From positions 13,640,001-13,704,000 of the forward strand of contig CM075101.1 in NCBI GenBank assembly GCA_037576195.1: 64,000 nucleotides of DNA. Direction: 5' to 3'. Source of the stretch: Phytoseiulus persimilis (lineage: Eukaryota > Arthropoda > Arachnida > Mesostigmata > Phytoseiidae). Below, one piece after another: positions 12,601 to 61,769 of this stretch. How positions within the stretch are numbered: the stretch's first letter is position 1; the number at the start of each line of letters is the position of its first letter. Position numbers and translations under genes: made by a program. Under the pieces are notes generated by a model. The model ran no database searches. It saw nothing but the letters and a program-made list of their open reading frames with translations, and was not told the origin of the DNA.

Positions 12601-14170
12601 TCGATTTTTTTCATGAGACCGAGACTCGAGACAAACTGCGTCTTGTGACTCGGAGACCAAGAATCCCGGAAAGACTTCGATTCAGGCGTCGCTCAGGCCT
12701 TTCCCCCTCAAAACCATCGTTGGCTCCGTTGTAGTACGTCCGGTGTTCTCCAAAAACCGAGTTGGAGTATGAATGCATGATGGAGTAGTTACGATCACTG
12801 TAGGTCGTTGAAGAATCATTGTTCCGTTTAGCTTCTGGCCTTTTCGGCGTGACAAACTGCTCGACGGACGCCAACTGGAATGGAATATTCGTCCTCTGAT
12901 CGCGGATGCTGAATCACGATGCACAAGTTCTCAATGCGCCCTGGTTCCGTCTAGAGCAGCGAGTAGTTTCTAGAGTGCGGATGGGGAGGCTCGATAGTAT
13001 CTGAATGGTGTCTCAATACTTATGTCGCCTGGTAGCCTCGAAAGAGCTGATTCGAAGATGGAGCCTGAAGGCGGCTCGGCGTCTTACCACGGAATGGTTA
13101 AGAGAACTCATTACCCCACGGGTTGAGAAACTTGCAAAGGTTCCCCCGTAGAAACCCCGAGAAATGAGTGCTCCGAAGCGTCTGTGTTCCGAGGAGACTC
13201 CTGCGTTTTCTAGCTCTCTCGGAGAGAAAGGTAACTGACAACGCAGCCTCTCGATTGAGAGACGCCCTCTTTGAGAAACGGTCGATCGTTTTATCCTGAC
13301 AAGCAGATCAGAACACGATTGCAATCCGAGATTCCAGTCACCTCTCAGAAAGGGTTTGCCTTGGATTTTGCACTACTTTTGACAAAATTTGGTCAACTTC
13401 ATATGCTCATATCTCGGCTCCCGGATGGGTCACAGCGACCATCGAGTTATTTTTGGAAAGCTCGAGAAGAGAGCTATCGAATGGCATACTGATTCGAATT
13501 CATCAATTTTGGAGGTGTGCGCCCACTTTCGATCCAACGACATGTAGGCAACGACATGCATTTGAAGTTGACCTTTTTTTCGTCAAAAGTAGTGCTGAGT
13601 CCAAGGGGCCAATGGCCCAGCCTCAATGGCCAAGACCCTCAATTCGTTGATTCCGAGAGATGTCTCATGGGAAGCCCCGATTCCTACCTGGTGCCTGCAC
13701 ACGCTTCATGCCTGAATTGAGAACCTTATTCGAGCGGTGTTCGATGAGTGTATCCTGGGCTAGATGAATCGGAAGGTCTAGTATCGAACTCGCAGATTCC
13801 ACCTTTGATTTCGTTCCCTGGCTCCTTTGCGACTCATTTTCGCCGATAGCTGCGAGGGTAGCCGCAGACCTCTCCTGCCGAGGAATGTTCATGAAGATCC
13901 TCAACCGATTGAACCGCTTTCCATGAATGTTCTGGTCGACTTGCGGCTTAGAGCGACCTGTGGCCAGGCGACAGGCACACGTCGGTCAAGGTTGGCCCGT
14001 TCCCGCTGAGCGGTCGATGTCTTCCGATACTCGAAAGCTGTGTTCAATATGATCGGACGTCCTCTTCGAATCTGGGACCTGATCCCGTTTCGAATATTGG
14101 ATTCCGTTTGACTGTCCACCCTAGGTATGCTGTACCTCGAGAATAACTGTAATGGCTGATATCGTTCGGA
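9655..14170. other. 4.5-kb interval without a supported coding gene
   Basis: Upstream of two divergent genes, DIPK1 on the minus strand and ENT on the plus strand. A GC-rich, simple-sequence patch (about 10140-10480) gives long but low-complexity open frames. A splice-donor-like site (cg|gtgagtt) near 10752 could end a non-coding first exon of the ENT gene. The rest shows only short open stretches with no family resemblance. Promoters of both genes are expected here but no motif can be assigned. Confidence 0.45.
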
Positions 14171-15676
14171 ATGCCCTCGACACGAACCGGGTACCCCGCA
14201 TTCGATAACAAATTATTCCCGATTCCAGGCTCATCCGACCCTCCGACAGAAATAGCCGCGATGACGCTCGACAGGGACGCGACGGTCACGTACCAGAGGC
14301 CAGAGTCCGAGAGTCTGTTAGGCGACTCGAAAAGAGCTCCAGTCACCCTCGGTCCCGGTTGGGAATCTCGTCACTCAAACTCAGACCTGGTACACAGCTC
14401 CAAAATGGACATGGAGGGAAAAGCGCCGCCCGACCGATGCAATCTCCTGTTCATCATCCTTTTGTTGCATGGAGTTGGGACGCTGATGCCGTGGAACATG
14501 TTCATCACAGCGAAGGAATATTTCATGGAGGTGAAACTGAACGTCAGTCTGATTGAGGATCGGAATTCAACCGACTTCGAAAACCTGTATAGGTACAGCT
14601 CGAGGTACACCGGCTACGTCATCATTGCCAATCAGCTGCCGAATCTCCTGTTCAACTTCGTGAACTTATTCGTCCAGTTCGGTTCGGATAGTCTAGGACC
14701 GCGAATCGCTGGCTCTCTAATTTTCGAAAACGTGCTCTTCGTCTTGACCTCAGTCTTGATCATGATGGACACAAGTACCTGGCCCATCGTGTTTTTCTTC
14801 CTCATCATCTCCATCCTTGTGCTTCTGGGCGCGGCGGGAGGCATTTATCAGAACAGTATCTTCGGTTTGTCCGCGAATCTGCCGGGAAAGTACACGGGGG
14901 CGATCGTTCTCGGAACGAACATCAGCGGCACGTTGGTATCTCTCATTGACGTACTCACAACGTACGCCGCACCGAGTCAGAAGACGGCGGCGATTTATTA
15001 TTTCATCTCAGCCTTGTTCATACTCTTGTTATGTTTGGATACGTACTTCGCGCTTCCTTTGTTGAAACTCTATCGGTACCATCAGAAGAGGAACAGGCAA
15101 ATCAGCAATGCTGCGGGGCGGAAACCGAGTGTTCTTGCGGTGTTCAAAGAATCCTGGTTCAACTGCTTGAACGTGTTCCTGTGCTTCTTCGCCACTCTGG
15201 CATGCTTTCCCGGGATAACCGGCGAAATTGTGGCTCTCGATGCGAACTTCCCCGTGAGCAGCACGTACTACAACAAAATCTTCTGCTTTCTGTTTTTCAA
15301 CTTTTTCGCGATGGTCGGAAACATGCTGCCTGCCTACATCAAATTCCCGAAGACGCCGCGGCAAACATTCTTCCTGGTGCTGATCCGGCTACTCTTCGTT
15401 CCTTTCTTCATATTCTGCAACTTCGAATCAAAGAGGAGACTTATCGACGTGCTGATCGGCGATAACTATTTCATTGGAGGCATGGTTTTATTTGCGCTGT
15501 CGCATGGTCATTTATCATCACTCTCAATGATGCAGTCCACGTATGGGGTGGCCGATAAGCACGCCAACATCGCTGGAATGATGGCCGCCTTCTTCCTGGT
15601 CTTCGGCATCTTCTTGGGCGGAAATTCTATTTTCCTAATTTCGCATTTTGTTCTGGAGAACGAGCCGATCCCTTAG
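14171..15676 (+). CDS. Equilibrative nucleoside transporter (SLC29/ENT family), single exon
   Basis: One uninterrupted frame of 501 residues starting at ATG 14171; an in-frame ATG at residue 31 is an alternative start. After an approximately 85-residue hydrophilic N-terminus come eleven hydrophobic segments, as expected for ENTs. TM1 carries the family mark HGVGTLMPWNMF (PWN at 107-109), TM4-TM5 the small-residue stretch GAAGGIYQNSIFG, and the last helices SHGHLSSLSMM and IAGMMAAFF. A large cytoplasmic loop separates TM6 and TM7. ENTs carry nucleosides and nucleobases down their gradients across the plasma membrane or inner membranes; the substrate cannot be read here. There is no intron in the coding region, unlike most neighbours, so intron loss or retroposition is possible. 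I see no poly-A relic or flanking duplication, so simple intron loss is as likely. Confidence 0.93.
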   Translation: MPSTRTGYPAFDNKLFPIPGSSDPPTEIAAMTLDRDATVTYQRPESESLLGDSKRAPVTLGPGWESRHSNSDLVHSSKMDMEGKAPPDRCNLLFIILLLHGVGTLMPWNMFITAKEYFMEVKLNVSLIEDRNSTDFENLYRYSSRYTGYVIIANQLPNLLFNFVNLFVQFGSDSLGPRIAGSLIFENVLFVLTSVLIMMDTSTWPIVFFFLIISILVLLGAAGGIYQNSIFGLSANLPGKYTGAIVLGTNISGTLVSLIDVLTTYAAPSQKTAAIYYFISALFILLLCLDTYFALPLLKLYRYHQKRNRQISNAAGRKPSVLAVFKESWFNCLNVFLCFFATLACFPGITGEIVALDANFPVSSTYYNKIFCFLFFNFFAMVGNMLPAYIKFPKTPRQTFFLVLIRLLFVPFFIFCNFESKRRLIDVLIGDNYFIGGMVLFALSHGHLSSLSMMQSTYGVADKHANIAGMMAAFFLVFGIFLGGNSIFLISHFVLENEPIP

Positions 15677-36813: not shown

Positions 36814-39800
36814 TTACAGTGGAAAGCGATGTTGAGTTCCGTCGTCGAGTATCAAAGTGACAGACTTGTTTGTTGGCCATACCAGTCTACCCATCCTGAG
36901 TGGATTGTTGCGTGCCGTTTCGGGAAGCGCCGGAGTGGTGCATGTTCTCAAACATTTGGTCTGAGAATTGCCTAGACCGAACAGACCTGATGCTGTCTGC
37001 CAGAATGACAGTTTGTTATCGCCGGCTGCGTACGAAGCGAGATACTTGCCCTCGGGCGAGAAGGCCACCGCCGTGACCGGAGTTCCATGCGCCAGAATGT
37101 TCTGACACTTGGCAGCCTTGAGTTCGTAAAGCGCAATCGTGCCCGACTTGGCGCCGACGGCGATGCGTCGGGTGGCGCTGCAGTGGGTCACGTTGTGGAA
37201 GCGGCAAACAGCTGGGAAGAGTTCCTGCAGACCTTTAAGCTTAAGTTGCGATGCGTCCAGACAGTGGAGTACGATGTCCATCACTTCGACTAGCAGATCA
37301 TGCACGTCGTTCTGGACACGCTCGATGAGCAGCTCCACGATGCGAAGGATTTCGGGTTTCGCTCGGTGGAGAACCGTCTGGGACAGCGTCGTTGGCAGTG
37401 TTTGAGCGTTCTGCGCCAACGCGTTGTAACGATGCACCTCTTTTGCCAACGTAGTGATAAAGGCGGGCGGTCGTGCCGTTGCGATCAGCGAAAGGGAATG
37501 TCGTGCAGATCGACACGAATCGGCTGACGGCGTCAGAGGGAGCCCGTACGTCATGGTCGGAACGAGCTTGTCTGAATTGCAGCATAATTCCAGAAGTCCG
37601 ATGAGGACCCGGGTCACGTCGAGATGACTCTCCCAGACGGTGAATCCCCTCCCGATAAGATCTATGGACGCCCGCCGAAGGGAGGTGTGAGCTGGGAGTT
37701 GGTTACTGGCCGGGCTTAGTAGCAGGTAGCTGAGGGCTTGGGCCGTGTGTCTGGTGAGGGACACGTCCTTGTTGGAGACGGTTTTCTTCTCCAACTCCGC
37801 GCTACCGTAAGTCGCTCCGATGACGGCCAACAGCACAACGGCTGTGGATTGTTTCCGTTTGGCCTCGGTGACGGCGGAGAGCAGTTTGATTTTGTCGTCG
37901 TCGTCGTCTTCGGATTCCTCGCCGTCCTCGTGCGCGGGGTTGTGTGCTCCCGCGCCCGTTGGAGCCCCGCCCGGATGCCCGGGTTGGCCGGGCAGCGGTG
38001 GCAGTTGGTGTTCACTGTAATTGGGCAGGAAGAGCGACCATGAGTCGATGACTTTGCGCCGACCTTCGGGTCCGATGCTTCGGAGTTCAGCCAGCAGCAG
38101 AGCTTGAGCCGCCTCCCGAACCTCGAGGCATCGATCTTGCCATCTCCTCGCCAACATCTCCAACTGAGGCCTCTTGTATTTTTCGCTCTTGACCAGTTCG
38201 GGCAGCTGGACGCAATGGTGGGTAGCCAGACGGCTCCAGCCGGCCTTGATCATGTGTTGATTGTTTTGAGCGTCTTGTGCCTCTTTCGCCGATTCGGAGC
38301 CGATACGGCTGTCGGCCCTGCTGAGTTTTCGGTTGAGCTTGCGTCGTCGCTCCTGCTCATCTATGAACGTCGCGCTGTTCATAGACATGAGCGTGTTTGC
38401 TAACGCAACGAGACTGAGCAGGTGGTTGGTGGTGAGAGCCTTCGCCAGTTCCCAGTGGCCTTGGCTGGCGAAGCGTCGAGCTCGCTCCTCCTCTTGAAGT
38501 ACCTCCTTGGCGACGTCGATGGTGACCGAGCGCCCGGTCTCGGAAGCACTCTGGCTGGACAGTTGATTAGCCGGATAGAGTTTATACATGTGGGTGGGCA
38601 GAAACAACGCCATGTGTCCGCTGCGTGACAATAGACCAAAGTGCGCTGGTCTGATCGGTAGGAGCAAACCGAGCTTTGCTTGGCAAACTTGATCCAGGCC
38701 CGTATCGAGGCCCCAAGCGTGCAATTGAGAGAGTAATAGCTGCGCGATCTGCATTGTTTGATTCGTCTCTGCGAACATGAAGCCTCCCGGTTTGGCAGTT
38801 GGACTGTCTTTCGATTTCGCTTCTGGCACAGCAGCTGACTTGATGCCGACGCTCTCTGCAGTGGCTTGAGCGGTAGCTTGTATCTTGGACGCAGCGGACT
38901 CGGCGGTGTCCTTGACCTTGGCGATGAATCCAGCCAGTTTCTTGTTGGCATCCGGCGACGATGCCAGGTTGTAGTACTTGTCGTACTCTGTCTGATTCGT
39001 GAAGCCATGCGATTCCAGTGTTCCGGGAGTCATTTGAGAATACTCCTCAGATAGCAATTGAACGATGAGTGCTTCGATATCGAAAAAGAAAACGTGGCTG
39101 TCCTGTTGACAGCCGTCCATGGTCTGTTGCTGGGTTCTGAGGCCCTGAATGACTAGCGGATGGGCCCGATAACGCAAAGTAGGATCGTTCAAACGTTGAT
39201 TATGCGCCTCGAGCGTGTTGTGCAGCTGCACTAGACCTCGCTGCGCAGCGTGTTTGATGGCGGCTATGTTTCGATGTCGTAGTCCACGCAGCAGGTGGAG
39301 CGCGGGATTCGAAATTTTCTCCCCCGCCATGTTGACGTTCTCGTCGCAAGCGTTCAAAATGTCCTCGGCCATCATTCCTTGGATGACTCGATCCAGGTGG
39401 CAGGTCTCCATCTGCCACACGTACACAGATCCATCGGCGCAGCCGACGATCATGAAGTCATCCAGCGGTCTCCATTTTATGTTGGTCACCGGGAAAAGAT
39501 GCCGAGATGCCAACAAAATGCATTTGCGGTCTTTGAGGTGCAGCAGTGAGACTGCGTGGTCAGCTCCGATACTGCAGATGCATTGAAGCACGCGCTGGCT
39601 GCACGTTTCCGGCGGAACTTGAAGCAACTGAATCTCTCCCGAGTGAACCGAGAAACGGTGCAGCAGTGATCCGCTGTAGAGATCCCACAGACAGACGGAG
39701 AAATCGACCCCACCAGAGACTAGATGAGCGACATCGTACCGCGTGTTCACGTTGTGCGGATATAACAACGCCGTCACCTTGCCTTGGTGGCCTCCGAGTG

Positions 39801-41610
39801 TCAGAAGCTGTCGGTTCGCGAGATGTTTCGCGCCCCAGAGAATCTGCGCCATCACGCAATGTATGACCGACATGATAACGATCGAACCGTCGGAGCGACC
39901 GCACGCGAGCTGTCCCTGGATGGGGAGGTAGGCGCTCGCGGTGATGTAGGCGCCCGGAATGTCGATTCCGTCCAGTATACCGACGGGCGGCGGGTTCAGC
40001 TGATCCCAACTCGCCTGCAACGATGTACTGTAAACCGCTGGCAGAAGGACCGGCTGTGCGAGGGAAACCAACTCGAGCTCGTGGAGTTTCCAACGGTACA
40101 CAGCGCCGTTCGCATCCCCCTGGATGAAGTGTTTCTGCAGTGTATCTCTCGTAAGCAGGAAATAGTTGCTGGTAGGCGGATGAACCAGATTCGGTTCGGC
40201 GGTCGCTTGCAGCACAGCTATGCAGTTGGGCTTCTCCAAGTCAACCGTATGAAACTGTGCCGTCCCCGGCACCGCCTTCTGAGGAATCTTGTAGATGTAT
40301 CCCTTCCCGGTGTTCGTCCACGACAGGATCTGGTCGGTGGACAGGAAGCGGCCGCCGGCCCACCGTTCGCCGTTATACGCCTCCTGCGAGCACAAGTGCG
40401 AGAAGTCGCCGGCGTCGTAGACGTGCCACGCGAGTGGACATATGATCAGAACCGTGCGCTGATTGTACATGCAGCACGACAGACCGACGGCGTGATAGCA
40501 GTCAATCGGTCTCGATTCACCTTCGAACAGCACCTTCCCGTTTTGCAAGGCTTCTTGCTCGTCGACCCTCCAAACCTGGGAACGAATTAGTGTTCAGTCA
40601 AATAGAGCGACAGCATGGCGTTCGCTGGACTCCCAACGCATCGCTCCAGAGAAGATGATTTCACTTATGTAGGTTTACCTTCATGTAGCCCGTAGAACTC
40701 AAAGCAACTAGAATGTCATCGTTTCGTTTGACAGGATGAATAATGTCCATTGCAGCGATCCAATCCGAGTCGACTCTTGAACTCAGCGTAAACAGAACCG
40801 TCAAACTGGAATTCGGATCTTCACTTCAATGCTCCCGTCATGTCACGGTGGCGAACTCGTCGAGGATCAGCCTCGGCGGATTCTTCCGGCAGCCATGCGG
40901 TGCAAAGGCGAACCAGAGTTTATCTGACTAGGCATATTTTCAAGTCAAGTATGTGATCATCACGGATCTGAGACTGAGAGGAGTCTTCACCGAACCTCAC
41001 CTGACCATATCCATCACGATAATTTCCGCGTAATAGCCGCAGCAGAAGAGCCGAGGAATTTCAGCTCCAGTCAGTGTGTAAGCTCGAATGTCAGTGTGTA
41101 CTTGTTGGAGCTTGACAGCTTCTACGCAGCGACAATCATTCATGTCCCAGAGTGACATCTCACCGCTCTCGGAAGCAGAAACAAGCAACTGCTGATTCGT
41201 TAAATGATTTCTTTCCGTAGCGAGGCACACAACCTGCAATTGAGCCAGAAATTAGGTTCCCTAGTCGGCCCAATACCTCAACGCGCGGAACGATCATGGA
41301 AAACTTCCCTGCCCGCAAACATCGAGTCTACGGTGGAGTCGACTCCGTTAGGGGCGTCCCGGAGCGGCAGTCATTCCGGGGAAGCTTCGAATGTACGATA
41401 TTGTCCACTGACCTTTGACGTGTGTCCGTGCAGCATGACCCGAGGAATCAGCTGACCCCCGCAGTCATCCCAAATGCAGAGATGGCCCTCATGACTTCCC
41501 GTTACGAGGGTGGTGTTATCTTTGGAGAGAACAAGGCAGCTGACAGAATGTGCGGGAGCTTTTTTCCCCCAGATCGTCATGGGCACAACGAGCTGACTGG
41601 AGAGAGCCAT
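36814..41610 (-). CDS. WDR7: WD repeat protein 7 / rabconnectin-3 beta
   Basis: Minus-strand exons 41610-41413, 41233-41001, 40805-40679 and 40575-36814 encode 1439 residues (human about 1490). The N-terminal WD40 propeller begins PMTIWGKKAPAHSVSCL and continues through SASESGEMSLWD, GYYAEIIVMD, SDWIAAMDII and HVYDAGDFSHLCS. A second WD region (GHQGKVTALLYP, SGGVDFSVCLWDLYSG, VGCADGSVYVWQME) is followed by the family block NPALHLLRGLRHRNIAAIKHAAQRGL, a long helical middle, and C-terminal WD repeats near VTAVAFSPEGKYLASY. WDR7 pairs with DMXL1/2 (rabconnectin-3 alpha) in a complex that controls V-ATPase assembly and vesicle acidification. The last coding exon is 3762 bp without an intron, whereas vertebrate WDR7 has many exons. 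An acidic linker occurs around EDGEESEDDDDD. Confidence 0.95.
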
Positions 41611-43344: not shown

Positions 43345-46300
43345 TCACTCCAATACGCTGAACGTATCAGAACCTTCCTGTATCAGGACTGCTTCATCCA
43401 ACGGTAGCTCCTTGTATTCGAGAATCTTGTACTGTGTTGTTCGCCCGTTGTCCTCAACTTGCAAGTGAGTGACATCATCTCCCCCAGCAGCTCGGAGCAG
43501 TTGAATGGCGATATTCTCGTCAATCTCGTTGATCCCTGGAAAATGGAGCGTCGGAATCTTAGGAGGTGCCTCTGAAGATCGACTCGAAGAGTTCCTCTGC
43601 CCGAGTTCTGCTTTGACACGAATGTGCATCTTGCGATTAGCATCCGCTCGATTCGAGAGGAGCTAGCCCCGAATGGAAATGAATCGTCGGAACCTTACCG
43701 TCTTTCCCGCCTTCGACTTCGAGACTGAAATGTGTGTTACCACCGCGCATGGAGATGACAGCCACGCCGCGAGTGAGATCTCTCTTGATAGATACAACGC
43801 CTTCTTGGCCGAGTACGACGGGGCCCTGATCTGTCATGTAAATGGTTTCGTCCTCTCTGAAATCGATCCCGCCCTTGTTAGAGTTTTCGCTCCTTGGCTC
43901 TGGCCGCTCGAACTCCTTCGCAGCTTTTCTACTCACGCGACTTGGTCTCCTGACTGCAGGTGCTGGATGGCCTGGTTACTGTTATCTACAATCAGCTGGT
44001 CTGCAGTCATACACTCATGCGTTTCGAAATCAGCTTCGTTCTCGAAACCCTTCAAACAGCCGGAACAGTAGAGTCTCACTTCCTGGGTGCCACTCTGGTG
44101 TTTGATATAATTTCTCGGTGCGGCCATCGTCGTCGGGCTAGGTTCGATCGGGGCATGCGTTTTTATGTGGGCGTCCAGCGACTTCTCTTTGAAGAATCCT
44201 TTTTCACAAGTTGGACACTTCAAAATCTTATACTGCGTCGTGCGACCATTATCTTCGACTTGCAAATGAGTGACGTCGTCTCCACCGGCGGCCCTGACCA
44301 GTTGCAGTGCGATGTTCTCGTCGATCTCATTGATTCCTGGAAACAGGATTTGATATAACTGTCGAGCGGAACAGATGAACTCGATGTGTCCTCGAGAACA
44401 CCGCCAGTTGCCGGCGGAAACCGGCGCTGACTCACCATCTCTTCCGCCTTCAACCTCTAAACTGAGTTGACCCGAGCCTTCGCGCACAGAAATGGTTGCC
44501 ACACCCTGATCCAAGTCTTTTCTGATAGAAACTAGACTTTCGGGGTTCATGAGAGCCGATCCGGGTTCGGTGATGTAAACTGCGTCCTCATCTCTGGAAG
44601 GGGTGTCAAGGAATATTGTCCGTGTCCTTTTCGAGAGAACTCGATCTCGATCGATGGAGGAGCGAAACCTTACCCGGCTTGTCCGGACTGGATTTGTTGG
44701 ACTGGTTGTCCGTTAGCATCGACGACCACTTGATCCGACGAATTACATTCGTGGGTTTCGAAATCGGCTTCGTGATCGAACCCTTTCAAGCAGCCAGAAC
44801 AGATCAAACGGACCTCCAGAGGCCCTCCGCCAGCTCCCTGTCGATGCTTCAGGAAACTTCGTGAACTCAGGAAGGAAGCTCCACCCGGATTCTGGCTGTT
44901 GCCGGGTTCGTGACTCTTCATGTGGATGTCGAGAGATTTTTTCTTGAAGAATCCACGTTCACAAATCGGGCACTTGTAGTCGCAATCCCCACGATGAAGT
45001 CGCAAGTGGTTATACAGACCGACCTGCGTGAAAAGCCACGGCGTTAGGCATCCAACAATCTAGAAGTCCGTTTTTGTTTCGTTTATTGGCGCATGAATCG
45101 GAGCTGAAACTTGGGCGCGGAGGGTCTTGCCTTGGTGCTGAGACGCCGGTTGCAGTTCGTCCATGGACACGGTGTCGGTGGTGCGTGCAGTTCCATATGA
45201 GCCACAAGTTGTTCATTCTGCAGGAATCTTCGGTGGCACTTGTTGCACTCATGAACCACACTGTGCTGAGACAAGTGAGACCAAAGAGCTTGTGCGGACG
45301 ATGCTTTTGCTCCGCAGATCTGAAATGAGCGAAAAAAGCGTCGAACATACTCAGAATGCAGCGTTCATGATTGTGACGCGGAAATTCCCTCTGGTATGCG
45401 CGGGAAGAATGTGATCCCAAGGAGCAGATAATCACCTCACAAATGTTGGCCATTTCGGGGTGCGCATTTTGGATATGATTTCTCCTTGGACCAGGCTGTA
45501 CAAAAAGTTGACCACAGTGCTGACACTGATACTGATGACTTTCGGTTTCCATATGCCGGACGAACGTAGATAACAAACCGTGCCAGGTGTGGCAAACACG
45601 ACAACGGTAATTTCGGGGCTCGGTTCGATTGTGTTTGTCCTGTATCTTCATGTGTTGTGTAGCGTGTTGGGCGCTCACGAAATGCTCCTGGAGATCCTCG
45701 GCGGAGTCGAAGACCATGTCGCACATGGCACAAAAGTGTTCCCCTCTGCAAATGAGTGAATTCCGGCATCCCATCGGTTGATTCAAAATCCGAGTCATCG
45801 AGCGAGAACCCCGGAAATTCAAATTAGTCTCACCTTTGGTTGTGGATTTTGCAATGAGCTTGGAATGCGGCTACGTCCTCGAAGGTATTCGAGCAGGAAG
45901 TGACGATGCAGATGAATCGCTTCTGCATACCGTGGAGATTGTGCATGTGAAGATAGAAGAGAGTGTAGTTTTTAATCACCACGTCGCAGAGGTGACAGTA
46001 GTGACCCACTTTGTTGGGGAAACCCAACGCATTGAGACGACTGTCTGATGGCACTTCGTTGCGCTCCAGCATAGCGCTCGGGTCCATGATAATCTCTGTA
46101 GTGTCGTTGAGCGGACAGATCTGGAAGAAGAACCGCCGTGAGCGGATCGGATACAATTTGAGATTTGGAACGAGGACTCGTCGGGAGAGCGGGAAAGTTG
46201 AGAAGCGGAACGTTGACTTGTCCTCGCTTGGGGGAAGATGAGGGGGGGGGGGGGGTCAGTCTTACCTGGGTTGTGACTTCGGGGACTTCATCAGCCGATC

Positions 46301-49300
46301 GAACGGTCCGTTTCACCCACTTCATATGAACGTGATGGAGATGTTGATTCGCAAGGTCGGAATTTTTGAGCGTCATGTTGCAGAGGAAACAAGAAGTCGC
46401 GCATTCGTCCAGACCCTCATCGTCATTATCTGCGTACTCTTGGAGGCCTTGAGGAAGAGAGAAGATCAGCTCTCAGGTATCATCTGAGACTAAGATATGA
46501 CTCGGTCAAGGTATGCGGTCTTCCAGCACTTGTGTTTCGTTTTCTCAAACTCACATTTGCCGTCAATCATGTGCTTTTCAACCTCTTCCTTCTCGGAGAA
46601 CACTTGCTCGCAATGGAAGCATTTGAACATGAGATTGGTTGGGGTCTTCTTGCCATCTTTGCGTTGAAGATCGGGGCATTTTGCTATGTGCACGAGGAGA
46701 TCGTCGTGGCTGACCGTTGGCTCCAAGCATTTGGCACAAGACCACAACGACGGTCCGGTTTGAACAGCGTGCGATAACAAGACGTGTTTCATGAGGCGCT
46801 CTTTGCCATGAACGTACACTGAGCAAACTGTGCACTGCAAATGTGGACCCGGTTGCCCGTCCAAATGTCGTTGTTTCACGTGGGCCTTCAGGCGACCCGG
46901 CCTCGGAGTACAATAGTTGCAGTACTTGCAAACAAACGTCATCCGATGATGCACAGATTTCATGTGCTCATGATGCTGCTCGAAACAGCCGGAGGGGAAG
47001 TTACACATGGAGCAGTAGAATACTTGAGACAAATTCGAAAGCTGTCCTTCAAAAACATGACGGATGGTACGCTCGTGCATCGTTGTGTAGTGTTCGCGAA
47101 CTTCGGACAAAGTCCGCAGCGTCGCACTGCAGAACCTGCAAAAGGGAGAATCGGTTTGAGATGGGCTTCGGCACCTAATCCCTTCTTCTCTCTCTCTCTC
47201 TCTCTCTCGCTTGAGAGCTTCCTTCCCAGAAAATCAAGGCTCGGTCGGGACCTTGCTCGGAGAAGTGCTTACTGGCATGCCGATTTGAGTAACGTTTCTT
47301 CAGTCACATCATCGGGTAAACAGATGAACACGGCGTTATCGGAAAATTCTGCTTTCGCGGGAACAGCCTGTATTTCATGGATAACGTGATAGTGTTTCTC
47401 CAAGTCGATCAGAAACTTGAAAGTGAATTTCTCTCTGCAGAAGAGACAACGCATCGGCTCCTGAGAGGAATGGATTTGTCTGGAACGAATAGATTGGACA
47501 TCAGACTAGATTTGTGATTCACCACGGCGAATGGATAAGCTCGTCTCACATGAAGATTCTCGTTCTATGCTCGGATCTCAAGCTATGCTATCCTTTTTCA
47601 CCTCGCCCAGCCAGTTAGGGCGCTACGCGACATACCTGAAGAGATAGTTGCCCTGAAGCCCCTCGAGATTCTCCGCCTCTCGAAGAGGCAAGTCGCTCTC
47701 TATGAGCTGAACCTGGTTTGGGAGTTTCTGCATCGAGTTCATATCAACGAAGTCCGCTGTGCAGTCCTCCAATGTGATGACTGTGGCTGGCGACGTTGGG
47801 ATGACGGCTGGAAAGTTTAGAAGATAGTTCCAACAATCAGAAAGGGACGAGCTTCAATGAGGAGGAGCAGCCGGCGACCCAAGTGCATGCTGCACTGACG
47901 TAACTCTGAGAACCGTATCGTTGCACCTACGTTTCTTTTTCAAGGCGTCGAATCTGGTCAAGTCCTTTTTGACCGAAGAGAGTCCGGCATTGTTCTTTTC
48001 CGGTGATTGCTCTTCGTCAACATTTTGGTCCTGCGGAAAATCGGGACGGAACGAACGGAACATTAGCGACAGAGGCATAACCTCGTCGGGATATAAAATC
48101 CATGAAATCGTCTGGCTCACCTGAGCCTGGTTCTGAGAGTTGTACATGAGAGCCATTTTTTCTCTCACGTAGGGCATTTTCTCATCAGCTTTCTCCACAG
48201 CTTTAGCTCTGTCGTTTGACGCGTTTCCGACGATTTCTATGGTGACTCCGTCTTCGGCAACGACGAAAATTCGATTCTTTCGCGGCTTGGGGTTGTTGAA
48301 TAGCTTACTACGACCTTTCTTGCGAGCCATGATCCTCCTTTGCTCGGCGGTTAATCCCTCGTGCAATCTAGGAGCGTTCGCACTTTTCTGGGAAGATGAC
48401 TGATCTGCAGAAGAGCTGTTCCTGGCTGTTTGGAGGGAAAAATGAAATCAGATGAGTTGTCGGCGAGTCGTCTCCGTCCAAGTTCTCCGCTGATTCCTTA
48501 TCAAGCGGAGGATATCAGTTCTCGGAACCACTTGAATTTCACGGCACGTAGAGTTCGATAAAATCAATGAAACTATGAAATCAGCTCACTGATAGGTTTC
48601 CCGGAGTGAGATTTTATAGGCTGATCTGGCTCGTATTCTTCGTCACCGTCATCGTCAACGTCCTCTTCTTCGTCAACCATCTCCTGGAATACCATTGACG
48701 TTTAACCTGCTGCCTCGAAACTTCTCGTGCTCCACGGAAGCGACCCAAATCATGGAATCGAGAACTGATCGTTGAGAATTATGACTCTAGGGCCACATTC
48801 GAAAGGGTGGGGAAACGAACCGTTTGTTTCTCGGAGAGTCCGCTATCCGAAGCTTGAGTGATGTCGTTCTCATCGTTGAGTCTGACGACTTCGACCTGTG
48901 GATTTCGAGTTTTCAAGGCACAACAACAACAATAGCATAACGGAGTGCTCAATCGTTGCCAATCACTGCAGATGGCAAGAAGCAATACACGAAAAGCCGG
49001 CTACCTGGAGGGTCTTCGGGTCACTCTGCATCACAACTATTCCTTGGGAGTTCTGGAGCAACGACAGCTGATCACTGTTGACGATCAGCACCTGAAAACG
49101 TTCTGGCAATTGGAACATTCATTGGAGACAAGACAAAGTCAGAAGCTTGAACTGAGAATTCCACAGCGTCATGTCCAGGGCCATGGATTTCAGGCGCTGT
49201 GGAGCTTGGAGGAAAGCGGGCGACAGTTCTCCGAGAAACCTGATCAGGAAGCGATCAAGACAATGGGCGTCAGCCATCGAGAGGCGAACCTTGAAATTCT

Positions 49301-51224
49301 TTGTTTCAAGAGAGAAAAGGAAGGAAAGATTTGCGAAACAGTCTCCCTCGTCCCCAGCGCGCGGTTTAAATGGAGAGATCTCACAGCGGGTCCCTCAGCG
49401 TCTGCGCCCGAGTGGCTCTGCTGACACATCGGAGACCCCAGAAAGAGGCTCTCTGTCGGGGTAAGGCTTATTGCGATACATTTGTCGCGAAAATCGGGAT
49501 TGAAACGATCCCCTCTCGTCATTCTCGTTTCATATCTCGGAATCAACCTCCAGGCAGAATGCCAAAAGAGGACCGGGAAGAACACCGAGATAGTACTCGG
49601 AGTGAGCCCGGCTGGCATCTGGAGTATAACGATCGGAACTCTCGGCTCTCAGTCATGAAGCAAGATCATCATACGAACCTGCTGTCCACTTTCCACGACA
49701 GCTGCGATCGTGGATTGATTCAGGGGAGTTGCCAGTGTCTGCGTCGGAGTCACTGTCGCGGAGGGCTGAATCGGCTTCCTCTGCAAGATGAGCGCCTTGT
49801 TACTTGTTCAAAGCTAATCCGCAGTTCCGACGACACTTAATATCCGCGTCTGGGGAAAATTCCGTCACTGAGATCCGAACCCTAGTCGGTACCTTCCGCT
49901 GCAGGATGCTCGGTATGCTCCTTCTATTAGACTCGTCGTCCCGGTTGAGGACAGGCATGGTAACGCCGCTCCGCATCGACGTGGACAGTCTTTTCAGGAA
50001 ATCAGTGCAAGCTGGAAATCCGAATCGAGAGGGGTAGTCCGACGATCAACCAAACTATTTATCTGCTAAGCATAGGGCTAAGATAAATACTTACAGTTGA
50101 GCTCACCGATCGCTACATGAATGCGGAATTAGTGCAAAGTAAGGCACACGCAATGAAAACAGGGGTAATATGGTGAAAATGAAACTGCATAAAAGCCACA
50201 CTTGACAGGAGCCTGTCGTTACCTGCTTTGCTCTGTCGCTGCTTTCGCGGTCTGCTTCCGGAGGAAGGTCCCGGCTCGGTTTTTTCCTCAAGGTTTGGAT
50301 CTCCGATGGCCTAGCAGGAATCAGGGAGTCTCTGATGAATATTTCCGTCTCCGAACAATAACACAAGATACTCTAAAAGGTAGGAGATTCGAAAAGATTC
50401 AGTGCTAACAACAGTTACCTTGAAAACGTCTGAGTCATCGGTGAGCATTTCACACTTCCTCATGATGCAAATCTCTTCCAGAGCTCCTCCTCCTGTCTTG
50501 CGTTGGCAAGGAACACATCGACGACAATCTGCAAGCACTCATGATGTAGATGTTGTTTGATGAATAATATACGTAGAAGTTCAATGAAACACCAGGTCCC
50601 GGATACCTTCAGTTCGGGAACAACCATCGCACTTCCTGCAGCCTCCCTGAGCTTCCGCGACTTTACGCTCTTCTTCGCGACGGCGCTCCCTCTCAGCAAG
50701 GTCTGCCTTGGAAGGACGTCCGCGTTTCTTTGGCGGCTCTGCAGCGAAAAACTTCTTCACGGACACGAACCTTCGATGTAGGAACTCCAAATCCATCGAA
50801 CAACAATTCGTGACAGTAGGTCTCAAGTACAGTGGGTCATTAACCTCGGTCTAAGACTCACCTGGAGCGCTTGACTGAGCTTGTTCCTCCTCATCGGGCT
50901 CTTCGGCTTCAGCGTTGTCCTTGCACTGCTTTTTGTGTTGAATAAAGCTATCCAGATCGAAGAAACTGCGTTCGCAACCGCCGCACTTGAACTCATCTGC
51001 AAAAGATAACAGAATTCGATTACCTCGGGACGGCTGTCGACGCAAACAGCACCCTGACGTTTTTAGAGATTCCAAGTCGCTGATGGATCACATCGAAGGC
51101 GCATGAGAATCTCTCGGCTTCCGAGGCACTAGAGCAATTCCCTCTAGAACCCTCGACGTCTGCATACGGCATTGGGATGCATCAGCCACTCACCTCCGAC
51201 TGTTTTACGTTTTTTTGGGGGCAT
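43345..51224 (-). CDS. Large zinc-finger protein with C2HC finger, AT-hook, CXXC domain and C2H2 array
   Basis: Twenty-four minus-strand exons join in phase to 1520 residues: 51224-51194, 50996-50862, 50738-50607, 50528-50419, 50310-50223, 50011-49893, 49780-49679, 49091-49005, 48895-48821, 48683-48590, 48425-48121, 48030-47931, 47807-47636, 47479-47273, 47135-46555, 46447-46266, 46120-45834, 45745-45436, 45319-45131, 45023-44674, 44593-44436, 44336-43937, 43856-43699, 43535-43345. In order: basic start PPKKRKTV; finger with C15, C18, H31, C35; AT-hook KKRGRP (59-64); CXXC zinc finger (89-125) with eight Cys in the canonical order; acidic and Gln-rich linkers; a basic KKGRSKLFNNPKPRKN block; about 19 C2H2-type fingers; then a duplicated module ending VLE. 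The layout suggests a nuclear chromatin or DNA-binding protein. The N-terminal finger and some array fingers recall ZNF341, but I know no family with this whole order. Intron 19 uses GC. Exons 5-8 are the least secure. Confidence 0.8.
46242..46255. repeat. Poly-G homopolymer (C14 on the transcribed strand)
   Basis: Fourteen consecutive G within intron 16 of the zinc-finger gene, just downstream of its donor. Confidence 0.9.
47186..47208. repeat. CT dinucleotide microsatellite
   Basis: About eleven CT units in intron 14 of the zinc-finger gene (AG repeat on the transcribed strand). Confidence 0.85.
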
Positions 51225-58823: not shown

Positions 58824-61769
58824 CTAATCGTCATCAAGCGTCAGGTTCATTCCTTCATATAGATTCGTTGTCTCGGGAGCATCCCGTGTCACTTTGAAAC
58901 TCGCTTCGGCGTGTTCCACCATGTCCATCCATTGGGCGTTGAAATGACCAAACTTGGCCAAGCGAACTTGAGCCGCCCAATCCTGACCGTGTTCTGCCAA
59001 AAGGTCGAGTGCGGCGTCACACATTAGCTGCACTCCCTTGTTCGCGTCATTGAGAAGATCCAGGAAATAGCCGGCGACGGGGGTTTTCGCCAAAGCCGCT
59101 TCCCGCGAGCCTTTGTGCCTCAGGATGCAATAGAAGACCCAAAGCACGTGGACAACCATCGTATCATTTTCCTGGAGAATGTCATTCACAGGTGAATTAC
59201 CGTCTACTCCTCTTCCAATACATTTATGTGCTGTCTGAGAAGGAGGACCGCTGATTGGCGAGCTGAATGTCTCACCTGGCACGCGTTGAGGATGCCTAGG
59301 AGGCAACCGTATAAACCTTTTCCGATGAAATCGAGGGCTATGTCAGAATCGTTTTCCGCAAAAGTCGCGCAGAGGAGTAGAAGGTCCAGAACGAATTCTT
59401 CTTCCGTTGTGCATCGCTCCAGTTGAGAAGAAACTGCTTGGAGCTGGTCGTTTATCCACATCAGCATCCCACTCTTTGTGACGTTATTCAATACCTGCAA
59501 ATGGAGGAGCGGAGATCCAGCGCGAGTTTGTAAGGAGAACCCCGTTTCCCAGGAAAAAAAGAACGATAAACAGTGGAATCAGGCCAAGGCTTTAGTGGCT
59601 CGATGTGATTCTATACCTGCAGAAATTCCACTTGATCCAAATTGGCGAGAATCCTCATACACTCCGAGGCGACCCCATTATTCGTGGGAGTGCTGAGTCT
59701 GTGTTGCTGCTCCAAACGATCAGCGATTTTCTCGACGTGTTCCAAGAACAACTGTTTACTCGGCCCGTCGTGCATTGAAATGTTGCGAACGACTGGAAAC
59801 AAAAACTTTCTCACTCAGAACGCTCGAACCCAGCAAATCGCACTCGAACAAACCGAGAATATGAAATCAGGTCCCTCCAGCACACGGCACCGCACCTTTC
59901 AATAATCCGACGTCATTGTACTTTAGGGCCCGTTTGATCAAAAATTTCAAGCCATTCCTCTCGCAGATTATCTGTGCGCAGGAAAGACTCGAAGCTAACG
60001 ACTGAGCCACTGAGGACAACTCCGATGAGCACGGTCCCTCACTCTCGAGGATCAAGCCTAGGACCTGGAAGAAACAAAAATTCAGGTACGACGTGAAGCG
60101 GATCCAATTCGCCTCGATCGAATCCAGCCAAGTCTACAGTGCTCCAGGGAGTGCCATGGTTACTGACCACATGAGCGGCGTCCGTGTACGCGAAGTGCGA
60201 GATGAAACGATTGTCTTCCGCTATGAGTATCAAAATTTTGAGGACTTGAGAACGCATCGACGGTCTATTCGTCGCCCCGAGATGTGACACAAGCTTTGGC
60301 AAAAGGCCACAGCTGACCAGCCTGCACCGAGTCTCCGCATTGAAGCTTAGATTGTGGATCAGTTTGAGCGTCTGAAGGAGATTGAAACCTTAGATTCTTC
60401 GATGATGGAGATTTCCGGCTACGGCTGAGAGCTTTCAACCCGAAATGGAGGGTCCATGATGCCCTGCAGCAGTTCTCAATATATCTCTCAATGCGACAAC
60501 GAAAAGGTCACAAACCATGGTAGCGATGTCCGCTTCTTCCGATGGTATGATTTGACATATTTTGTCCAAGGCGGCAGTTTGTGCGATATCATCGATATTT
60601 TCTTTATAGGAACTGAGCTTCACCAGGAACGTTAGCACGACTAGCAAGAGAGGCCGACTTTTCCGATCCAGGCAAGTCGTCAGCAGGGGCACGATTCCCT
60701 TGTTAACGATTCTCATTTCGTTCTTTGGATCACTTGACATATTCAACAGAAGGCTGAACGCGGCCGTCAGCATTGTGTCTTGTTTCCGAAGAACGGCCGT
60801 ATAGCTTTTCGTGAGATTCTCAAACGCCTCGATATCGTTGCTGAGCTGTGATTCCTCCAGCTCGTCGAGGACTTGTTGAGTTTTCTGCATTTCGCCTTGA
60901 AGGAGCTCCATGGTGAGAGATCCGACTTTGTGATCGGATATGACGCTCGCGAATGTCACAAATCTCGACAAGCAGTGGAAAAAGTTCAGAATGTTGCTCG
61001 CTAACGAGTAATTCCGATGACCCTCCTCCCGGAGTGTCCTCGTTAGAGCGCCTAGAAGCACTTCGTGCCTGGTGAGCACCTCGAGATTCTCTGTGTTCTG
61101 GGCTAGGAACAAGATCATGGAGGACGCTCCAACTTTCGAGTCGTCCTCGTAGAGATCTTCAATGTATTTGTCAAGCTGAACCATACTGATGGACCGCGTT
61201 TCCTCTTCCCGGAGGCTCGAAACGCCGCTCTTCTCCCGCCGTTTCCGAATGTAGTTCAGGAGCTGTTCGACTTCGCGGAGGTTTTGTGCTTTCGATAGGA
61301 GCTGGGAGTTTTTGTCGCAGATTTCCTCCGCTAACGTCACGATATCGCTGTCCTGGAATCCGCCAGAATGCAGTCGTTAGAGTTCCAAGGAAGCAAGACG
61401 GCATTCCAGAACGTCACCGGCAGCAATGGCAGCTGACGTGCAGGCATGGAATCAGATGCTACTCACCGCGGCTAGATTCTTGATTCGAACCGTCCTTTGG
61501 AGGAACGCGGTATCGTTCGCTACGTCGTTCTTATCGCTGATAACGCAGTCGAGTTCATAGCTTATGACCAAAGCTCGCTCAATCGGATGAACGTCTAACT
61601 GGACGTTGGTGACTCGGCGCTGTACATTCAAATCCGTCGACATCGCTGCGAACAGAATGCTGTCTCCGGCGCGGGGGTCAGTTTCCTGGGGCTCGTTGGG
61701 AACAGAGTCGAGCATCTGTACGAGGGACTCCGAGTCAGCTGGGAGGTCGGCGAGTCTGATCGTCGTCAT
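58824..61769 (-). CDS. Kap3: Kinesin-associated protein 3 (KAP3), non-motor subunit of kinesin-2
   Basis: Seven minus-strand exons (61769-61467, 61352-60516, 60371-60168, 60064-59896, 59792-59617, 59494-59276, 59171-58824) encode 751 residues (vertebrate KIFAP3 about 790). Recognised blocks: RRVTNVQLDVHPIERALVISYELD at the N-terminus, VEQLLNYIRKRR, the armadillo-type repeats through LLTAAFSLLLNMS-like helices, LLPKLVSHLG, FISHFAYTDAA, ICERNGLKFLIKRALKYNDV, RNISMHDGPSKQLFLEHV, and the C-terminal VLWVFYCILRHKGSRE and WMDMVEHAE. KAP3 binds the tails of the KIF3A/KIF3B heterodimer and links it to cargo, including intraflagellar transport. It ends in LTLDDD and lacks most of the Tyr/Gly-rich tail of the vertebrate protein. 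All junctions agree in phase. Confidence 0.95.

Follow-up and report, generated by a model that had tools for sequence, protein, structure and literature searches.

Organization of the gene and its surroundings

The window, the whole stretch of 64,000 nucleotides analysed here (Phytoseiulus persimilis, contig CM075101.1, positions 13,640,001 to 13,704,000), carries on its minus strand a gene that was rebuilt at 51224-43345; its 26 exons supply 1537 codons ahead of the stop. The reading phase is consistent across all 25 introns, 24 of which are GT-AG and one GC-AG. The initial annotation had counted 24 exons and 1520 residues, and these figures give way to those of the rebuilt model; the phase agreement that it reported stands, and the segment 50419..51224 that it had assigned to exons 1-4 coincides exactly with these exons in the rebuilt gene. 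The GC donor belongs to intron 21 (45130-45024), with AAG before and GCAAGA after the splice point, and the acceptor of intron 17 (46554-46448) is AAG.

One uninterrupted open frame of 1259 amino acids, with WD40 repeats, lies downstream of this gene on the minus strand (36814-40593); its WDR72-type match is weak (19.8 bits against a cut-off of 20). Elsewhere in the window, Pfam matches mark a nucleoside transporter encoded by a single long frame (14153-15676), a Rel homology exon (1423-1890), and the exons of a kinesin-associated protein (58824-61376).

In exons 1-4, an NLS-like start leads into a C2HC finger and an acidic stretch, after which come an AT-hook, a charged stretch, and a CXXC domain. 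Exon 1 (51194..51224, minus strand, as are all the exons) contains the start codon and the NLS-like MPPKKRKTVG. Exon 2 (50862..50996) contains the C2HC finger (aa 15-35, 50985-50923) and then the acidic stretch. The N-terminal C2HC fingers of E4F1, ZFP64, and ZNF341 are probably similar. The finger agrees with the strict finger pattern and, as a 43-aa piece, scores 18.8 bits for zf-C2H2, below the cut-off of 25.2. Exon 3 (50738-50607) carries the AT-hook core KKRGRP (aa 59-64, 50713..50730) and the first three cysteines of the CXXC. In a 35-aa piece the AT-hook (PF02178) reaches 17.5 bits and thereby passes the cut-off of 17.4 by 0.1 bit, and it is absent from the whole-protein Pfam matches at E ≤ 1. 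Both the C2HC finger and the AT-hook had already been called in the initial annotation. Exon 4 (50528-50419) carries the remaining five cysteines.

Beyond these exons, a linker with weak support and uncertain boundaries (exons 5-9, 49586..50310) is followed by an acidic linker (exons 10-15, 47636..49091), of which a 279-aa piece has no Pfam match at E ≤ 10. Two pieces of the protein scanned against NCBIfam match no family.

The C2H2 array and the C-terminal duplication

The main C2H2/C2HC array is encoded by exons 16-22 (44910..47448, aa 545-1157). The strict finger pattern matches 19 times in the protein, including the N-terminal C2HC finger, or 18 times past it; 17 of these 18 lie in the main array and one more in exon 24, where the initial annotation had given the array about 19 fingers. 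In the whole protein, zf-C2H2 reaches 41.9 bits against a cut-off of 25.2, with seven stretches above it. Against the PDB, the best 60 of the 163 matches of the array are solely widely shared C2H2 matches.

Exons 23-26 (43345..44593) form a C-terminal tandem duplication, in which exons 23-24 repeat exons 25-26 within the protein. The introns of the two exon pairs have no clear similarity, and the duplication is the older of the two described here. Exon 24 consists of an exon-26-like 5' half joined in frame to an exon-22-like 3' half, the latter carrying the finger, as unequal crossing-over within two exons might produce.

A further copy of exon 23 is located on the same contig approximately 17.5 Mb away, with an 87% protein match at C1:31.186 Mb. 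In DNA, the copy extends over 176 bases at 94% identity (window 44444-44619 against C1:31186500-31186675) and comprises 150 of the 158 bases of exon 23 together with the last 26 bases of intron 22, including the splice acceptor. It is probably a recent duplication of the single exon. The paralogue search from which it emerged used 888 aa from exons 16-24 and gave 106 matches. Among the 51 of 221 candidates scored, the other matches beyond the gene are 23-36% identical across the finger part, a level expected of unrelated C2H2 genes. As far as searched, the gene appears otherwise single-copy at the sensitivity of the search. A 204-aa piece of the array has no match in viral_contigs and, in genome_contigs, 12 pattern matches with no confirmed relative; arthropods are outside the intended scope of both collections, so these results have no bearing on novelty.

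A genuine but degenerate CXXC domain

A phase-1 intron splits the CXXC domain between its third and fourth cysteines, so that Cys 1-3 are situated at the end of exon 3 (50607..50640) and Cys 4-8, with the loop QRKTGGGALEEI, in exon 4 (50452..50528). All eight cysteines are present at aa 89-125 with spacings of 2, 2, 5, 2, 2, 12, and 4, corresponding to the order CXXCXXCX4/5CXXCXXC followed by CX4C. This eight-cysteine pattern does not occur in 2000 shuffles of the protein model. The first half of the domain is near-canonical, with R-T-E-D-C common to CFP1. In a profile search, the zf-CXXC match (PF02008) spans profile positions 6-48 of 48; within the full 1537 aa it scores 21.1 bits (E = 3.3e-4), below the curated cut-off of 26.5, and on the isolated 58-aa piece 29.0 bits (E = 1.1e-6), above it.

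The low whole-protein score would suit a chance cysteine-rich stretch, and so would a shuffle of the 58-aa piece with its cysteines held fixed that reached 18.6 bits; cysteine spacing supplies much of the PF02008 score. However, all eight such shuffles scanned fall between 9.1 and 18.6 bits against 29.0 for the real piece, so the match reflects more than cysteine spacing. A PDB search with aa 1-164 (E ≤ 10) further argues against chance, as 10 of its 11 matches align at the CXXC and belong to CFP1, KMT2A/B, KDM2B, and TET-type entries, the best being CFP1 (E = 0.0011); the remaining match is a C2H2 finger of Xfin. An incorrect splice of exon 3 to exon 4 in the model would likewise mimic a domain, but the exon 3 donor ranks in the best 7% of the GT sites of the gene region and the exon 4 acceptor in the best 4% of its AG sites. 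We consider an accidental stretch or a false joint scarcely credible, and the CXXC call of the initial annotation stands: judged from its sequence, the domain is genuine but degenerate.

The reading loop of the CXXC domain

The usual reader of unmethylated CpG is the CXXC domain. Here, cysteines 6 and 7 enclose a loop of 12 residues with a net charge of 0, whereas five canonical loops, that of the KDM2 of this genome included, contain 15 residues with KFGG and K/R-Q and carry a net charge of +3 to +5. The net charge of the whole domain is +3, against +5 to +7 in five canonical CXXC domains. At best a KTGG stands in place of KFGG, and E-E takes the place of the K/R-Q reading dipeptide, with L-E-E-I aligned opposite the I-R-Q-K of CFP1. 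The loop had been described earlier as lacking KFGG and about three residues short, and the accompanying guess of altered CpG recognition gains strength from the E-E. As far as the sequence tells, the domain retains its zinc ligands but not the residues that read CpG.

Excerpts of PMC4642587 and PMC3685328 distinguish type-1 domains, with KFGG and KQ/RQ, which bind CpG; type-2 domains, with neither motif, which do not bind; and type-3 domains, with a short loop and HQ, which bind. The present domain lacks both type-1 motifs, and its shortened loop carries E-E where a type-3 loop has HQ. Having neither KFGG nor KQ/RQ, it fits type 2 by its motifs, but its loop is shorter than described for that class, which in an excerpt of PMC3685328 keeps the type-1 length (12 against 15 residues). 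Like the type-2 CXXC1 and CXXC2 of MBD1, compared here by description, it retains eight cysteines, has lost KFGG and K/R-Q, and has a loop that is not positive; these two MBD1 domains do not bind CpG according to excerpts of PMC4642587, PMC3685328, and PMC3032784. The same excerpts state that replacing K1178 or F1179 of the MLL CXXC with alanine lowers binding, and an excerpt of PMC12361114 that changes in the KFGG of KDM2B weaken it. By analogy, the CXXC of the present protein has presumably lost CpG binding.

Alternatively, the domain might still bind DNA with an altered specificity, through E-E and its remaining basic residues. The complete set of zinc ligands and the domain charge of +3 would permit this, and the type-3 CXXC of TET3, without KFGG and with HQ retained, still binds, recognizing unmethylated C whether within CpG or in another context (excerpt of PMC3685328). 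However, both side-chain contact positions are acidic here and the loop has no net charge; MBD1 CXXC1, with a net-negative loop region, is described as a non-binder in an excerpt of PMC4642587; and the isolated type-3 CXXC of Tet1 has no specific DNA binding in an excerpt of PMC3032784, so that loss of KFGG alone can matter. Continued DNA binding is therefore considered improbable, and loss of CpG reading is preferred.

One transcript or two genes

It is plausible and, in our judgement, fairly likely that the exons of the CXXC and those of the C2H2 array belong to a single transcript. The weak point of this view is the joint, as the least-supported exons, 5-9, lie exactly there. With a codon preference trained on exons 13-26 of the model, the modelled frame scores 0.208 in exons 1-4 (0.003 and -0.176 in the other frames) and 0.372 in exons 10-12 (-0.139 and -0.123); within the CXXC itself the modelled frame leads by little (0.135 against 0.044), and in exons 5-9 the modelled frame scores 0.021 against 0.113 in another. 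Four splice sites score poorly, namely the exon 9 donor (-0.4 bits) and the intron 6, intron 10, and intron 12 acceptors (0.9, -3.0, and -1.0 bits, respectively). In a rough exon-path test, a small dynamic programme forced to connect exons 4 and 13, exons 4, 5, 6, 9, and 12 were retained and exons 7, 8, 10, 11, and 13 were changed or dropped, with a score of 82.9 for the preferred path against 49.1 for the model and 47.2 without exon 9. Since the clean exon 13 was also split, the weights of this test are poor. Splicing exon 4 directly to exon 10 keeps the frame open at a path score of 48.8, about that of the model, and the proposed joint between CXXC and C2H2 exons would therefore not hinge on exons 5-9.

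The locus could instead hold two genes, one spanning exons 1-4 or 1-5 for a small N-terminal protein with the C2HC finger, AT-hook, and CXXC, and the other a C2H2 gene of its own that starts somewhere in exons 9-13. The weak coding and splice support in exons 5-9 is compatible with such a boundary; furthermore, exon 9 starts with ATG and is followed by the longest intron (494 bases), and exon 5 can be read through into its intron until a stop at 50113. Against this division stands the phase agreement of all the introns, although some in-frame path is expected given the many candidate sites; all exons also lie on one strand, and the introns are short. AATAAA and ATTAAA are absent from this strand between 51300 and 45976, but they are equally absent past the modelled stop (43345-42901), so the lack of polyadenylation hexamers says little. 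Two genes thus remain an unlikely alternative, though a weightier one than continued DNA binding by the CXXC, and the single transcript is retained as the working model.

CXXC genes and DNA methylases of the genome

A genome search with the 49-aa CXXC domain (E ≤ 10) gives four matches, of which two are the gene's own exons and one is KDM2. The fourth was considered as a second CXXC-C2H2 gene and rejected, as it has 34% identity, contains a stop, and looks like chance. A genome family search for PF02008 reports KDM2 only; the present gene, with its intron-split domain, is missed, so other CXXC genes may escape the search as well. The locus at C3:19.715 Mb appears to be KDM2, on the basis of its CXXC and the PHD-like stretch that comes after it, and it retains a normal loop; therefore, loss of methylation alone does not explain the altered loop of the present protein.

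The DNA methylase family search returns three matches, all pieces of one place at C2:36.505 Mb (36505190-36506688). A 97-aa piece from this place has four PDB matches (E ≤ 0.01), all of them DNMT2 or tRNA C38 methyltransferase, and by its sequence this DNMT2-like gene is the only DNA methylase reported for the genome. The exon-by-exon family search reports no piece of DNMT1 or DNMT3, and in an excerpt of PMC8821070 both are undetected in the four Mesostigmata examined, with which the present genome would agree. For TET, the search gives no match in this genome and equally none in the control genomes. With an observed/expected ratio of 1.09 for the window and 1.03 for the coding sequence of the model, CpG shows no sign of decay.

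Discussion

The combination of a CXXC, an AT-hook, and a C2H2 array looks unusual. MBD1, whose type-2 domains the CXXC resembles in motifs, is an MBD protein, unlike the present one. The type-1 domains of CFP1, KDM2, and KMT2A/B share the nearly canonical first half, and CFP1 is the best PDB match, but these domains possess the KFGG and K/R-Q that are missing here. In MLL (KMT2A) the AT-hook precedes the CXXC, and the N-terminal region of the present protein has the same layout. It differs from KMT2A in its degenerate reading loop and in having no SET or PHD match; SET, JmjC, PHD, and BAH are not among the six Pfam families matched by the whole protein at E ≤ 1. With poly-C2H2 nuclear factors it shares the long array of fingers, and it differs from them in its N-terminal AT-hook and CXXC. 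In the open-licence PMC literature, a CXXC-C2H2 protein is not described in the titles or abstract starts among the matches listed, a phrase naming both domains together was not found, and a lead to the fly ROW/ZNF592 yielded nothing; an excerpt of PMC12460157 names the CXXC in DNMT1 and TET only.

The best explanation, to which we assign a probability of roughly 0.6, is a C2H2 factor of the nucleus in which the CXXC has ceased to read CpG. In such a factor, the C2H2 array would find the DNA target, and the AT-hook would add a minor-groove grip on AT-rich DNA. The N-terminal CXXC would be a true zinc-binding scaffold of type-2-like character from which CpG reading has been lost, and it would now act as a protein-docking or structural module.

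A wider reading is offered only tentatively, as it is possible but less probable than not. The gene would then encode a chromatin factor specific to its lineage, a C2H2 protein whose CXXC once read CpG and has since turned into a docking module without reading function; target choice would have passed from CpG to the fingers, and this in an animal for which the only methylase detected is DNMT2-like. A zinc-scaffold CXXC with acidic reading positions in a poly-C2H2 protein would provide a natural test of the roles of CXXC domains other than CpG reading, and it would also test how CXXC modules change in an animal with only a DNMT2-like gene found.
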